Below are positions 24,551 through 63,825 of a DNA stretch of 64,000 nt, one piece after another (the first letter of the stretch is position 1; every line of letters begins with the position of its first letter). A program made the translations under genes and the position numbers. The stretch lies in assembly GCA_013100825.1 (NCBI GenBank), contig CP040001.1, positions 829,661 through 893,660 of the forward strand, given 5' to 3'. This stretch comes from Candidatus Saccharibacteria bacterium oral taxon 488 (GTDB taxonomy: Bacteria; Patescibacteriota; Saccharimonadia; Saccharimonadales; Saccharimonadaceae). Under the pieces are notes generated by a model. It worked only from the letters and a program-made list of their open reading frames with translations. It was not told where the DNA came from and searched no databases.

Positions 24551-25008
24551 TTAGTCGCCGCAACGAATGACAATTCTAGTACCATCTCCCGCTACAATCC
24601 TACACTTGCCACCGACAGGATACGTGAACTTCGGGTCAGTGGGGCCAAAATCGCATGATTGAGAACGGTGATATCAGAAAAGCCACCAAAGATCTTCGGA
24701 TTATCTTTAATAATTTGCCAGTCAATTTTACCAAGCAACTGATTTGAATTGAATCCGCCAATCGCCGCCAAAACACACTTCACGTTTTCGTCCATAAATG
24801 CTTCGTGTAAATCTTCAACCTTTTCGTCGTCCGTCGGGCAGCCTCGCTGATCCCGAGAAAAAGCATTTTTACTAAACGTAACCCTTAGTCCAAGCGATTC
24901 TAGTGCTGCTTTAGCTCGCTCCAAAACCCCTTTATCAATATCGCTCGCTGAACGTGCCGGTGCAACTACCCTCACTTCATCGCCTGGCTTTAATTTATCT
25001 GGTATCAT
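24551..25008 (-). pseudogene. S66 (LD-carboxypeptidase/MccF-like) gene with internal out-of-frame deletion
   Basis: The N-terminal 120 or so codons match S66 peptidases: MIPDKLKPGDEVRVVAPARS, LGLRVTFSKNAFSRD, DENVKCVLAAIGGFNSNQLL, and IFGGFSDITVLNHAI. The frame then runs into stop 24592. In another frame immediately after, GPTDPKFTYPVGGKCRIVAG to stop 24551 matches the C-terminal end of the same family. So roughly the middle half, including the catalytic Ser and Glu/His region, has been deleted out of frame near 24645-24660. A full-length member would be 300-350 residues. MccF-type members cleave microcin-C-like antibiotics; LD-carboxypeptidases trim murein peptides. The remnant cannot be active. 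Confidence 0.75.
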
Positions 25009-25036: not shown

Positions 25037-25056
25037 AAAAAACCTCCCGCAGGAGG
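25037..25056 (-). terminator. Attenuator terminator before the S66 remnant
   Basis: Minus strand: CCTCC, TGCG loop, GGAGG, then six T. It stands between the leader peptide and the S66 start codon and shares its 5' arm with a competing antiterminator stem. Confidence 0.7.
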
Positions 25057-25084
25057 CATAAAACAGCAATAAAACACCTCCTGC
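25049..25084 (-). promoter_or_regulatory. Antiterminator stem competing with the S66 attenuator
   Basis: Minus strand GCAGGAGG (25084-25077) pairs perfectly with CCTCCTGC (25056-25049). This 8-bp stem uses the same CCTCC that the terminator needs, so the two hairpins are mutually exclusive. The first arm begins directly after the leader-peptide stop codon. Confidence 0.65.
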
Positions 25085-25126
25085 TTACACGTGGAGATGA
25101 TGATGGATTGAGAGTAAATTCATCAT
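25085..25126 (-). CDS. His-rich leader peptide (MMNLLSIHHHLHV)
   Basis: A 13-codon frame, ATG ATG AAT ... CAT CAT CAT CTC CAC GTG TAA, ending one base before the antiterminator arm. Four of the last six sense codons are His. A -10-like TATGAT (25143-25138) lies 11 nt upstream of the ATG, so the transcript would have almost no leader before it. The layout (short peptide with tandem identical codons, antiterminator, terminator) is that of ribosome-mediated attenuation as in his/trp operons. A ribosome finishing the peptide would cover the antiterminator; one stalled at the His codons would leave it free. Confidence 0.55.
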   Translation of the reverse strand: MMNLLSIHHHLHV

Positions 25127-25157
25127 AGTTTCAGCATATCATAGCCTTACTGAAAGA

Positions 25158-25532
25158 TTAAAGCGATAAGCAAATTTCCACTGCTAGCACGCCATAATGT
25201 TTTTGGTCGGCAGCGGAATAATATTTGTTGTATTCGGCAGCGGCAGCTTCGGCACTGGTGGCATGCGGAATAACACGGTGGTAACCCTCGGCCTGCACCA
25301 TTTCTAAAAAGGAATTGTAGTGGCGGATGGCGATAATCTCCACGCGTGCTTGATCTGGTTTGCCGTCGTGTAGTATTCCTTCGGCATCGCGAACATCGCG
25401 ACGCAGGTGAATCTTATCGCCGACTCGGTACTCGGCAAATTTTCCGCGATTCAATCGACCTTCAACCGTCTTCCGCCCGGCGATAATATCGTCAAGTAAT
25501 TTTGATTCTCGTCCTGAGTGCCAGATTTTCAT
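25158..25532 (-). CDS. ASCH-domain protein
   Basis: A 124-residue protein starting MKIWHSGRESKLLDDIIAGR. The ASCH signature is TVEGRLNRGKFAEYRVGDKI, with VEIIAIRHYNSFLEMVQAEG later and VLAVEICLSL at the end. ASCH domains are PUA-like folds thought to bind RNA or modified nucleosides; one member is an N4-acetylcytidine amidohydrolase. The TAGGA ribosome-binding site precedes ATG 25532. It is single-copy and monocistronic, upstream of the leader peptide. Family is sure, function inferred. Confidence 0.85.
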   Translation of the reverse strand: MKIWHSGRESKLLDDIIAGRKTVEGRLNRGKFAEYRVGDKIHLRRDVRDAEGILHDGKPDQARVEIIAIRHYNSFLEMVQAEGYHRVIPHATSAEAAAAEYNKYYSAADQKHYGVLAVEICLSL

Positions 25533-33265: not shown

Positions 33266-33717
33266 ATGACTATTCGCAAGCAACTCATCACCTTTGCCGC
33301 CATCGACGCTCTTAATACCGCAATTGACATCGCAATATACACTCTGTTGATATGGCTCACCGCACCGCTACTATTGGCCGTCATCATTTCAACCACTGCA
33401 GGAATGATTTGCAGCTATTTTCTAAATAGACGCTTCACCTTCAAAACCGACCGCCAGCCAATTGTTCAGTTTATCGGCATCACCCTCACTGGCCTGTGGG
33501 TTTTGCAACCAGTCGTCATATGGCTGCTCGTCCAACTGCTCGGGATAACCAGCACTTTGGTTTGAGCGTGGCAAAATTAGCCGCCACTAGCGTCAGCCCA
33601 GCGTGGAATTTCGTGTGGTACCGAATTGTATTTCAAGGAACAAAGAAAAAACACCTCCGTAGAAGTGCCTTTTCATGGCTCCGGGGGCGGGGTTCGAACC
33701 CGCGGCCTATTGGTTAA
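33266..33717 (+). pseudogene. GtrA-family membrane protein, frameshifted
   Basis: The first frame encodes 99 residues of a GtrA protein (NTAIDIAIYTLLIWLTAPLL, CSYFLNRRFTFKT, ITLTGLWVLQPVVIWLLVQL) and stops at 33563-33565. The minus-one frame continues with SVAKLAATSVSPAWNFVWYR, IVF, the usual last helix of the family. One added T in the TTT run near 33561 would restore about 150 residues. The restored frame then runs antisense into tRNA-Asn, so the original stop also seems lost. GtrA proteins are four-helix membrane proteins in surface polysaccharide synthesis. It may be a pseudogene or a sequencing error. Confidence 0.7.
33646..33669 (-). terminator. Terminator of tRNA-Asn
   Basis: Minus strand CACTTC-TACG-GAGGTG followed by six T, a stem with a UNCG-type tetraloop, starting 7 nt after the encoded CCA. 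Confidence 0.8.
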
Positions 33718-33750
33718 CAGCCAACCGCTCTACCGCTGAGCTACCCCGGA
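33676..33750 (-). tRNA. tRNA-Asn (GTT)
   Basis: A complete cloverleaf: acceptor TCCGGGG / CCCCGGA, D-arm GCTCAGCGGTAGAGC, anticodon arm GTTGG-CTGTTAA-CCAAT giving anticodon GTT, T-arm GCGGG-TTCGAAC-CCCGC, discriminator G and an encoded CCA. It is the only tRNA in the window and is followed by its own terminator. Confidence 0.95.
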
Positions 33751-61392: not shown

Positions 61393-61800
61393 ATGTTAAC
61401 CAAACACGCCACCAAGTTCCGCTACCTCCTCATCGGCACCATCAACACCGCCATTGATTTTGGTGTGTTGTTTATGTTGACCTGGTTTATCAGCACGCCG
61501 AAAGAATTAGCCAACATTATCTCGACAACCATCGCCTTTAGTTTCAGCTTTGTCGCCAATCGATCATTCACCTTTCGCTCACGCACCGGCAATGTTCGCC
61601 GTCAGCTACTCCTCTTTGCCCTCGTCACCCTGTTTGGTCTCTGGGTAATTCAGACGATCATTATTGCGCTACTCGCGCCAATTTTCATTAGCTTTAATTT
61701 CAGTCAGCCGACAGCACTATTCGCCAGTAAGCTCATCGCCACGGTCGCCAGCCTCATCTGGAACTACCTGCTCTACACCAATGTTGTCTTCAAAGATTAA
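61393..61800 (+). CDS. GtrA-family membrane protein
   Basis: A 135-residue protein, MLTKHATKFRYLLIGTINTA, with four membrane helices, IDFGVLFMLTWFI, SFVANRSFTFRSRTG and IATVASLIWNYLLYTNVVF. It is intact and similar to the broken copy at 33266, so it serves as a template for that gene's missing end. Converges on jag, overlapping stops by 4 nt. Confidence 0.88.
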   Translation: MLTKHATKFRYLLIGTINTAIDFGVLFMLTWFISTPKELANIISTTIAFSFSFVANRSFTFRSRTGNVRRQLLLFALVTLFGLWVIQTIIIALLAPIFISFNFSQPTALFASKLIATVASLIWNYLLYTNVVFKD

Positions 61801-62258
61801 GAACTCTTCTGCGAGATTACTAAGTGCCGCGCACGGCCTTCGCCCTCAGAGTGGGTCTCAATATCGCTATAGTCACTCGCCACATGGTGCACTACCCAAC
61901 GATCAGCCGAATTTAGTTCAATAATCTTCGTCTCACCCGTCCGCCGCACCTCTTCGATCCAGCCGCGCGCCTTGTCAGCAATCTTTTCGGCATGCTGCTT
62001 CTTATAATCAGCGATATCAACATTCACTCGCACCAGCGCCGCCTGACGGTTACGCAAAATTGCTGACACCACCGTTTGTAGACTCCGCAGTGTCTCAGCA
62101 TTTCGCCCGATCAGCAAGCTATTACGCTCACTCGACGGCACAACAGCCTTGATAACATCGTCTTCAACGCTAACCTCGACATCCAGATTGAGATCAAAGA
62201 ACGCCAGAAAGTCCTCCAGATATTTCTTGACAAATTCAATGGTCGCGATTTGATCCAT
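61797..62258 (-). CDS. khpB: KhpB/Jag-type RNA-binding protein (KH-R3H), no Jag-N domain
   Basis: A 153-residue protein, MDQIATIEFVKKYLEDFLAF. A KH domain (VSVEDDVIKAVVPSSERNSL, LIGRNAETLRSLQTVVSAIL) is followed by R3H (SADRWVVHHVASDYSDIETH, RX3H pattern). The usual N-terminal Jag domain (60-80 residues) is absent. KhpB regulates mRNAs with KhpA in Gram-positive bacteria. It follows yidC by 9 nt with an AAGGAGG ribosome-binding site, the conserved origin-proximal order. Confidence 0.92.
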   Translation of the reverse strand: MDQIATIEFVKKYLEDFLAFFDLNLDVEVSVEDDVIKAVVPSSERNSLLIGRNAETLRSLQTVVSAILRNRQAALVRVNVDIADYKKQHAEKIADKARGWIEEVRRTGETKIIELNSADRWVVHHVASDYSDIETHSEGEGRARHLVISQKSS

Positions 62259-62267
62259 ACATCCTCC

Positions 62268-63218
62268 TTAGTCTTTCGCTTTTATCCGCGTGATGTTCGC
62301 CTCAGTCGCTGTGGCCGCTCGTTGCGAAGCGGCTTTTGATTTTTTTGCTGATGCGGCAGACTTGCTCGTAGATTTTGGCGAACGCTTTTCGCCGGCAATT
62401 TGTTGCATTTCCGTTCCGTCTTGCTTGAGAATAATGGCGTTTTGGATATAAGCAGCGATGTTTGAGGTTGCCATGTAGAGCGCCAGCGCCCCTGGCAAAC
62501 TGATCATAATAAGGAACATAAACACCGGCATAACCTTCATCATTTTGCGCGTGACAATGGCGTTAACCTCAGTTTGGTCAGCGTTCTTACCCTCGCCCGC
62601 CTCCATCAGCACATCACGCAACCGCTTCTTGTTGTCCGAACTTGGCGACATCTGCTTTGATAATAAATATTGCAAAACAGCGGCTACCAAGGCAAGGATG
62701 AGCAACCCAATTGATACACCACTTGATGATAACGCCTGCTTCGTCAGGTCCATCAGCCCCAAGAAATTCTGGTTAAAGTGATCTGGATTGGCGATCAAGT
62801 GCTTGACCGGCCCCCACTGCTCCATTACATCGTATGTGTACTTGGCGAGCTCTGAGCGCTGCAGTACGAATATCTGCACCACACGGTAAATCGCGATCAG
62901 TACTGGCAGCTGGATAAGGAGTACTAGGATAGAGCTCATCGGCTTGATGTTATGCTTTTTATACACATCCATCATCGCCATCGCCCGCATCTGTGGATTA
63001 TTCTTATATTTTTTGTTCAGCTTGGCAAGTTCGGGCTGTATCTTACGCATCGCTTTGGCTTGATGGAGCTGCTTCTTAACCAGCGGCCACAACAGAAAAC
63101 GCACAATTATTGTAAACAGTACAACGCTAACCCCAAAGTCACCGCCTGGAATTAGCGCATAAATTGCCATCAGCAAGTTAAAAATTGGTTGCACAATAAC
63201 CACATCAAACATGTTCAT
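62268..63218 (-). CDS. yidC: Membrane protein insertase YidC/Oxa1 family
   Basis: A 316-residue protein with five membrane helices (ALIPGGDFGVSVVLFTIIVR, FLLWPLVKKQLHQAKAMRKI; VLLIQLPVLIAIYRVVQIFV; PVFMFLIMISLPGALALYMA). The conserved FTIIVRFLLWPL carries the hydrophilic-groove Arg. There is no large P1 domain or lipobox, so it is the short Gram-positive-like type; the C-terminal 60 residues are basic and Lys/Ala/Ser-rich, likely ribosome-binding. Leaderless promoter TATAAT 6 nt before the ATG. Confidence 0.93.
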   Translation of the reverse strand: MNMFDVVIVQPIFNLLMAIYALIPGGDFGVSVVLFTIIVRFLLWPLVKKQLHQAKAMRKIQPELAKLNKKYKNNPQMRAMAMMDVYKKHNIKPMSSILVLLIQLPVLIAIYRVVQIFVLQRSELAKYTYDVMEQWGPVKHLIANPDHFNQNFLGLMDLTKQALSSSGVSIGLLILALVAAVLQYLLSKQMSPSSDNKKRLRDVLMEAGEGKNADQTEVNAIVTRKMMKVMPVFMFLIMISLPGALALYMATSNIAAYIQNAIILKQDGTEMQQIAGEKRSPKSTSKSAASAKKSKAASQRAATATEANITRIKAKD

Positions 63219-63224
63219 GTCCTC

Positions 63225-63230
63225 ATTATA
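63225..63230 (-). promoter_or_regulatory. Extended -10 box of yidC (leaderless)
   Basis: Minus strand TGGTATAAT, 6 nt before ATG 63218. Confidence 0.6.
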
Positions 63231-63242
63231 CCAGAGGTGGCG

Positions 63243-63590
63243 CTATTTATACAGCCCCGCCTGTGAAAAGAGTTGTTTTACTGCCGTCCTTAGGTCGCTA
63301 TGTGGCATCACCAGCACCTCCGGCGAAAACACCATAATAACAACATCAAACCCGCCCCGAATATGTGGCAACTCGAGTCGGATAATTTCGTAAATTCGGC
63401 GACGTACGCGGTTGCGTTTGACGGCGGATTTAAGCACCTTTTTACTAATCACTACCGAAAACCGACCATGGCGACGGCGCGGATTGGCAATATATTTCAT
63501 GGTGAGCTGCGATGAACGAATTGCCCGCCCGCGTGCATAGACATAGCGCAGGCTACCATGGCCATGAAATCGGTTGACGTAACGTAACAT
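63243..63590 (-). CDS. rnpA: Ribonuclease P protein component RnpA
   Basis: A 115-residue basic protein, MLRYVNRFHGHGSLRYVYAR, with VISKKVLKSAVKRNRVRRRI, YEIIR containing the RnpA signature KRNRVRRR, and VVIMVFSPEVLVMPHSDLRT. It binds the catalytic RNA of RNase P to process tRNA 5' ends. Conserved position between rpmH and yidC. TATACT lies 6 nt before the ATG. Confidence 0.95.
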   Translation of the reverse strand: MLRYVNRFHGHGSLRYVYARGRAIRSSQLTMKYIANPRRRHGRFSVVISKKVLKSAVKRNRVRRRIYEIIRLELPHIRGGFDVVIMVFSPEVLVMPHSDLRTAVKQLFSQAGLYK

Positions 63591-63596
63591 AGGTCC

Positions 63597-63602
63597 AGTA
63601 TA
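63597..63602 (-). promoter_or_regulatory. Extended -10 box of rnpA (leaderless)
   Basis: Minus strand TGCTATACT, 6 nt before ATG 63590, directly behind the rpmH terminator. Confidence 0.6.
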
Positions 63603-63604
63603 GC

Positions 63605-63633
63605 AAAATCCCGCCCTGTTAGGCGAGGCGGGA
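63605..63633 (-). terminator. Terminator after rpmH
   Basis: Minus strand CCCGCC ... GGCGGG (63632-63627 with 63615-63610), followed by ATTTT. It separates rpmH from rnpA. Confidence 0.65.
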
Positions 63634-63642
63634 GTTTGCGTT

Positions 63643-63780
63643 CTAGATAGCGATTTTAGCGCGACCCTTGAGGCGACGACGCTTCAGAACAGCGCGGCCA
63701 GCCTTGGTCGAAACACGAGCTCGAAAACCGTGCGTCTTGGCGCGATGTCGCTTGTGTGGTTGAAATGTTCGCTTTGGCAT
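63643..63780 (-). CDS. rpmH: 50S ribosomal protein L34
   Basis: A 45-residue protein, [45 protein letters not shown]. It matches L34 over its full length. It is the first gene of the minus-strand rpmH-rnpA-yidC-khpB group that flanks dnaA in many bacteria. A TACACT -10-like box lies 10 nt before the ATG. No Shine-Dalgarno is visible. Confidence 0.97.
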
Positions 63781-63825
63781 ATCGTCATTTAGTGTAGCCT
63801 TTTTTGACATTTTTTGCAAGCCATG

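Follow-up and report, generated by a model that had tools for sequence, protein, structure and literature searches.

Ribosome-mediated attenuation by histidine leader peptides has its textbook form in the his operon attenuator of enteric bacteria (hisL), in which a leader with His codons precedes alternative antiterminator and terminator structures and the polymerase reads through when charged tRNA-His is scarce. A second case comes from bacilli, where, according to the excerpts of PMC2965389, a histidine leader peptide lies upstream of hisZ and hisS*; the leader-peptide cases in those excerpts belong to Proteobacteria and Actinobacteria, with the bacilli as the only further example, ermC apart. 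We take PMC2965389 to be Naville and Gautheret 2010. On the side of the regulated enzyme, the nearest described systems are the MccF/S66 peptidases of microcin C immunity.

The locus described here lies in a stretch of 64,000 nucleotides of contig CP040001.1 from Candidatus Saccharibacteria bacterium oral taxon 488, hereafter the window. Its minus strand carries, flanked by an ASCH-domain gene (25532-25158) and the frame of an S66 peptidase (25008-24592), a short block that is probably a ribosome-mediated transcription attenuator, that is, a histidine-responsive switch before an S66 gene. With the enteric attenuator it shares the His-codon leader, the alternative antiterminator and terminator, and the predicted read-through at scarce charged tRNA-His, but its target is a lone S66 hydrolase and not the his operon. 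With the bacilli leaders it shares a short frame that contains consecutive His codons, placed in bacilli before hisS-family genes, and premature termination; it differs from them in phylum and in target, the excerpts of PMC2965389 naming neither an S66 nor a deacylase gene. As for the MccF/S66 immunity peptidases, the likeness rests on an intact relative of the window gene (locus L085) that falls near MccF-like chains, whereas the histidine attenuation upstream, together with the fact that the window copy is a remnant, sets the present case apart.

The matches listed from open-licence PMC papers contained, in the extracts they offered, no report of attenuation in Saccharibacteria or Patescibacteria, of leader-peptide or histidyl control of MccF or S66 enzymes in the 20 of 33 MccF matches covered, or of a HisRS leader-peptide attenuator in Saccharibacteria. 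An earlier, sequence-only reading of this DNA had proposed that a histidine switch on an S66 hydrolase would be new; what is new is the phylum and the S66 target, both unreported in those matches, but not the mechanism, which is known, also before hisS-type genes in bacilli. The findings extend textbook leader-peptide attenuation to Saccharibacteria, tiny host-dependent bacteria, and outline a histidine regulon that takes in hisS, his-biosynthesis genes and several peptidase/deacylase families.

Leader anatomy and predicted switching

Every element that the sequence-only reading had named, from the -10 box through the leader peptide to the antiterminator and the terminator, is present on the minus strand. 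From the position of the -10-like hexamer TATGAT (25138-25143, 5/6), seen in the sequence and also compared with relatives, the leader transcript is expected to start about 4-6 nt before the leader ATG; a promoter scan paired no -35 with this hexamer (25143-25138), the -35 being weak, and by eye neither a clear -35 nor a Shine-Dalgarno sequence precedes the ATG. The leader frame, MMNLLSIHHHLHV, comprises 13 codons and a stop (25085-25126), with His at four of the 13, and three consecutive His codons (8-10; 25097-25105) are predicted by codon-by-codon folding to be the sensing stall site. The stop codon abuts the antiterminator, as had been proposed: it ends at 25085, and the 5' arm, GCAGGAGGUGU (25074-25084), begins at 25084. 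The 3' arm, AUGCCUCCUGC (25049-25059), holds the CCTCC that folding and the leader alignment show to be common to the terminator. The perfect 8-bp arms described earlier were found (GCAGGAGG, 25084-25077, here arm A, and CCTCCTGC, 25056-25049, here arm B), but the computed fold extends the pairing to 11 bp (25084-25074 with 25059-25049). The intrinsic terminator (25037-25057), visible in the sequence and detected by a terminator scan, consists of GCCTCC-TGCG-GGAGGT (25057-25042) and six T (25042-25037), and folding together with the scan indicates that it and the antiterminator are mutually exclusive. Rfam release 15 gave a sole gathering-score match over the whole window, a tRNA at 33679-33750, and none at the leader.

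For folding, which was carried out at equilibrium and not co-transcriptionally, the ribosome was given a downstream edge 15 nt beyond the first base of its A-site codon. A ribosome stalled with its A site on the first His codon left the terminator at a probability of 0.00-0.01 in all three readable S66 leaders (the window, L085 and L111); with the stop codon in the A site, the probability was 0.95-0.99 in all three and 0.99 in the window. Scanned codon by codon, the window terminator is off at codons 1-11 (at most 0.15), with 0.00-0.01 for a stall at codons 8-10, and on at codons 12-14 (0.99), and L085 behaves likewise, switching between codons 11 and 12. These probabilities mark HHH at codons 8-10 as the sensing run. 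With the fourth His, at codon 12, in the A site, the terminator probability is 0.99 in the window, 0.97 in L085 and 0.26 in L111, which reaches 0.93 at codon 13. The proposal that stalling at the four His codons frees the antiterminator can thus be kept for codons 8-10 but not for the fourth, where the prediction is that a waiting ribosome covers the antiterminator arm and favours termination in the window and in L085.

Free S66-leader RNA folds to the antiterminator (terminator probability 0.00-0.01), so that it has no protector hairpin and untranslated transcripts would read through. Protector hairpins, which bring about termination when translation is lacking, are common in leader-peptide attenuators though not universal; in having none, as in their 13 codons and short 5' end, the S66 leaders differ from the enteric his attenuator. 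In the mechanism that we propose, transcription likely begins immediately ahead of the leader's ATG. A ribosome well supplied with charged tRNA-His would arrive at the stop codon and cover arm A, leaving arm B to pair with arm C, and the predicted transcript end is then at 25037. A ribosome short of charged tRNA-His would wait on HHH, leaving arm A free to pair with arm B, and read-through into the S66-peptidase gene is predicted. We infer that the element responds to histidine in the cell.

The leader-attenuator arrangement is real and beyond chance. ATG-started frames of 8-30 codons with at least four His number 11 in the window, against a mean of 4.6 in random windows, and the leader makes up two of the 11, counted from its two ATGs; only this leader among them has a hairpin and T5 within 70 nt downstream, a combination that did not occur once in 60 random windows matched to it in dinucleotide composition. 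When the stretch from the ribosome edge to the terminator was shuffled, a terminator probability of 0.05 or less was obtained in 22 of 500 shuffles for the window, 6 of 500 for L085 and 15 of 500 for L111. Folding energy is not unusual for the 131-nt stretch (z -1.07) and has a z of -2.86 for the 90-nt core.

The S66 gene and the leaders of its relatives

The downstream gene had been assigned to the MccF/LD-carboxypeptidase (S66) type, and the family assignment holds, but the gene is a deletion remnant and not a working copy. Its 138-aa frame (24592-25008, minus strand; Pfam PF02016, E 3.5e-30) is the N-terminal part, of which residues 1-122 match the intact S66 protein of L085 in tblastn; with the same query, an out-of-frame scrap (24566-24652, minus strand) matches residues 298-326 (45% identity, E 8.5e-4), and residues 123-297 are missing, an internal deletion of about 175 codons. 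The fragment's 19 best protein relatives are 85-94% identical over 88-100% of its length, one of them (89%) being named from Candidatus Saccharibacteria oral taxon 488, and three protein clusters of 12-26 members each share the 138-aa length, suggesting that the window gene is likely a standing broken allele. In the window genome, the switch probably no longer controls a useful enzyme. P0170, P0208 and P0214, by contrast, are S66 proteins of full length that carry the names of oral taxon 488 and Nanosynbacter lyticus.

Unlike the window copy, the L085 protein carries both S66 domains (Pfam). Its nearest solved chains are 5usd (Peptidase S66), 4e5s (MccF-like protein BA_5613) and 4h1h (Lmo1638), with E of about 1e-72, followed by MccF (3tyx, 3.8e-37; 3tla, 3.5e-30) and a muramoyltetrapeptide carboxypeptidase (6uuk, 7e-22). 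The Ser of GFSD, the Glu of LEDD and the His of GHTDP align with 3tyx MccF and are presumably the Ser-Glu-His triad of S66 enzymes. In L111, at about 1490-1510, an A run comes after the S66 start codon and the frame meets a stop five codons on, the remainder being open; this is either a genuine frameshift or an error of assembly. An RlmH-like (SPOUT) gene lies convergent to the S66 gene in both loci (within L085:1-703, with Pfam support, and within L111:2658-3360), and beside it in L085 there is an 84-aa piece with a HAHIHLIP motif, HIT-like by eye and without a Pfam match; HIT hydrolases are reported, in the excerpts of PMC7157772, to confer microcin C resistance.

S66 relatives were gathered by a scan of genome contigs and by genome searches, and three leaders could be read, those of the window, L085 and L111. 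L085 (genome G285) and L111 (genome G443), which belong to one genus, are the S66 loci with upstream DNA nearest to the window, at about 75% identity. Both have leaders of 13 codons (MISFINIHHHPHL in L085, MALFASIHHHFHL in L111), directly followed after the stop by an antiterminator that overlaps a terminator, as in the window. IHHH and the His at codon 12 are constant across the three peptides, the change in the codon-12 codon being synonymous, while the N-terminal codons vary. Within the antiterminator, one pair is changed on both sides and one on one side, and all 35 of 35 cells remain paired; compensatory change, which had been put forward as a check, is therefore seen at one pair but does not rise above shuffles, 164 of 500 of which reached the covariation of these only three sequences. 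Over the 302 nt further upstream no pair among the three loci shows any match, and neither L085 nor L111 contains an ASCH gene.

The his/trp-type logic, its histidine specificity and its link with S66 are supported by these two loci, where peptide and stems alike have been retained, and by like peptides before hisS and his-biosynthesis genes in other Saccharibacteria. The proposed look upstream of S66 orthologs found the leader in the two nearest, but it is absent within 300 nt from all eight S66 genes at 47-54% identity; the short frame MMTVHHRG in one of the eight, L084, was judged a chance occurrence. A model of the three S66 leaders (R1), searched with strict filters against 394 genomes, recovers G285 (E 1.4e-22) and G443 (E 1.4e-21) along with four weak matches, among them a leader rich in His upstream of hisS in G435 (E 0.009); the weak matches L130-L132 were rejected by eye as noise. 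As to further S66 genes, the sequence that holds the one in G001 (71%) begins inside the gene, five others in the genus of G001 (28 genomes) are at most 46% identical to the L085 protein, and viral contigs yielded a single S66 match, at 29%.

Histidine leaders before hisS and other histidine genes

The same kind of peptide is found within 260 nt upstream of hisS in 7 of 40 hisS loci of Saccharibacteria (L148, L150, L151, L159, L162, L168 and L169), the other His-containing frames upstream of these 40 being judged chance, and an eighth case is L180; an example of the hisS leader peptide is MLVLAIHHLHLSPERVG. A model built from the eight (R2), run against 392 genomes of Saccharibacteria, had matches in 67 at E<=0.1 and in 52 at E<=1e-3; since six of the eight training genomes belong to the 392, 46 of these 52 had not gone into the model. 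Of the 30 best R2 loci, 21 contain a HisRS gene downstream of the leader and on its strand, and by coordinates two more (G270 and G196) have one; in L204 and L212 a hisG-like gene, in L204 below the Pfam cut-off, is succeeded by hisD. In all, 25 of the 30 lead to hisS or histidine-biosynthesis genes, and these contexts support the reading of the window leader as histidine attenuation, with the His-specific logic first proposed for it; the available stretches of L189, L199, L202, L209 and L215 contain no histidine gene, that of L215 ending 144 nt past the leader ATG. Genes for an AstE/AspA-type deacylase, an M20 ArgE/DapE-type deacylase, an M15 dipeptidase-like protein and a SLOG protein also occur behind R2 leaders, and some of the deacylase- or peptidase-like genes stand between leader and hisS.

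Two-sided changes occur in 20 cells of the R2 helix, a count reached in 0 of 500 shuffles, and affect four of its nine pairs, as 23 of 500 shuffles also did, in an alignment that was fitted to the same structure. A terminator was found in 33 of the 35 leaders tried, S66 leaders included, the two without one being non-S66 leaders, and 29 of the 33 switch (at most 0.22 stalled, at least 0.89 at the stop); among non-S66 leaders with a terminator, 26 of 30 do so, the exceptions being L188, L189, L204 and L215. In 18 of 32 non-S66 leaders (L187-L216, L148 and L150) a hexamer matching TATAAT at 5/6 or better has its end at a distance of exactly 6 nt from the ATG that follows; the distance is 7 nt in five further leaders with a TATAAT-like hexamer. 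Many leader transcripts thus likely start at or next to the ATG, which in the 18 leaders implies a presumably leaderless translation of the peptide.

The window leader is itself matched by R2, with E 4.6e-4 over 70,729 bases; a second match of R2 to the window (62952-63016, E 0.052) falls within a yidC-like gene, in antisense direction, and was discarded as noise. The leaders of L085 and L111 are not found by R2 at E<=10. Both leader types have an IHHxHL-type peptide, often a close -10 box, and overlapping hairpins, but the hisS leaders differ in having a longer peptide, often with a SPERVG-like end, and in that their arm A is located where the leader frame ends, its pairing partner being the loop and 3' arm of the terminator. 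This different wiring, and the failure of R2 at L085 and L111, leave shared descent only as a possibility: the two types work alike, and they may or may not have a common origin.

In L193, L199 and L200, a protein with the motif AFAxxPWxEVxxC and further Cys lies between the His leader and an AstE/AspA-like gene, with no Pfam match in L193 or L199, and directly behind the leader of L202 a 434-aa protein is encoded (L202:172-1473, minus strand) that matches neither Pfam nor NCBIfam. The hisG-, hisD- or hisI-like genes behind the leaders of L204, L205 and L211-L214 suggest that histidine synthesis may persist in part of the Saccharibacteria.

What the switch may serve

The genes that are predicted to respond to histidine shortage point either to a route of histidine acquisition or to an attacker of HisRS. 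Tentatively, we favour the former for the S66 hydrolase, that is, histidine salvage in an amino-acid-dependent organism, a reading that is consistent with the presence of several unrelated hydrolase families behind histidine leaders. Saccharibacteria are generally regarded as obtaining amino acids from their hosts.

It is unlikely, in our view, that the same switch governs immunity instead, with the S66 enzyme acting against a peptide-nucleotide or similar blocker of HisRS and the loss of charged tRNA-His serving as the alarm. The two domains of the intact L085 enzyme and the MccF-like chains among its nearest by sequence would suit this, as would the HisRS of the two genomes that carry both leader and S66 gene: exactly these two, G443 (hisS locus L177) and G285 (L178), have a divergent HisRS, whose genes show by eye no leader in 350 nt upstream, and the other genomes of their genus have the usual type in 11 of 11. 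However, the two genomes amount to one clade, and the divergent type is not special to S66 carriers, since at 65% identity or more it has at least 120 matches, two among those listed being named Candidatus Saccharimonas; over 78% of its length, the L178 HisRS itself shares 93% identity with a protein that bears the name of TM7 oral taxon 349. A simple loss of the hisS leader to S66 finds no support, as the other 11 genomes of the genus are likewise without a hisS leader of the same type, and the His-containing frames at hisS of L139, L142 and L144 are judged to be chance. Against immunity speak also the decay of the S66 gene in the window, the deacylases of other families that share the leader and fit salvage better, and the narrow specificity of MccF, which according to the excerpts of PMC3817062 is effective on aspartyl and glutamyl adenylates only. 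About as unlikely is a full tRNA-charging alarm, in which these episymbiotic bacteria would sense a poisoned HisRS by stalling at the His leader, the MccF-like hydrolase would destroy the poison, and a divergent HisRS would have been swapped in; if true, the alarm's sensor would resemble the leaders that control hisS and histidine supply genes elsewhere in the phylum.

For the window genome alone, a re-use of the switch may be imagined, whereby read-through would feed the response regulator and histidine kinase genes (24475-22836, minus strand), which begin some 116 nt downstream of the end of the dead S66 frame. Their place on the same strand directly after the remnant, and a leader that is intact though its gene is dead, would agree with such a role, which we nonetheless regard as quite improbable, because the S66 deletion may simply be recent (three 138-aa clusters exist). 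The best matches of the window histidine kinase are at 47% among 118 genomes of the order and at 53% among 244 genomes of the class.

Very improbable is an erm-like sensor of slowed translation in general, for instance by ribosome-binding antibiotics, with the His codons as merely convenient stalls; any stall at codons 1-11 is predicted to free the antiterminator, as such a sensor would have it, but it is the His run that is conserved in the peptide and the N-terminal codons that vary, and similar leaders stand before hisS, hisG-, hisD- and hisI-like genes. The suggestion that the block is just the terminator of the ASCH gene, which ends at 25158 on the same strand, plus a chance His-rich frame can be dismissed as exceedingly improbable, because the combination was seen in 0 of 60 random windows and, in L085 and L111, the block follows S66 and not the upstream gene, staying where the upstream flank is unmatched and no ASCH gene is found.

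At the far side of the window, genes for an R3H/KH (jag-like) protein, a YidC-like protein, the RNase P protein and ribosomal protein L34 lie in a row (61797-63819), which suggests that this end of the window is near the replication origin.
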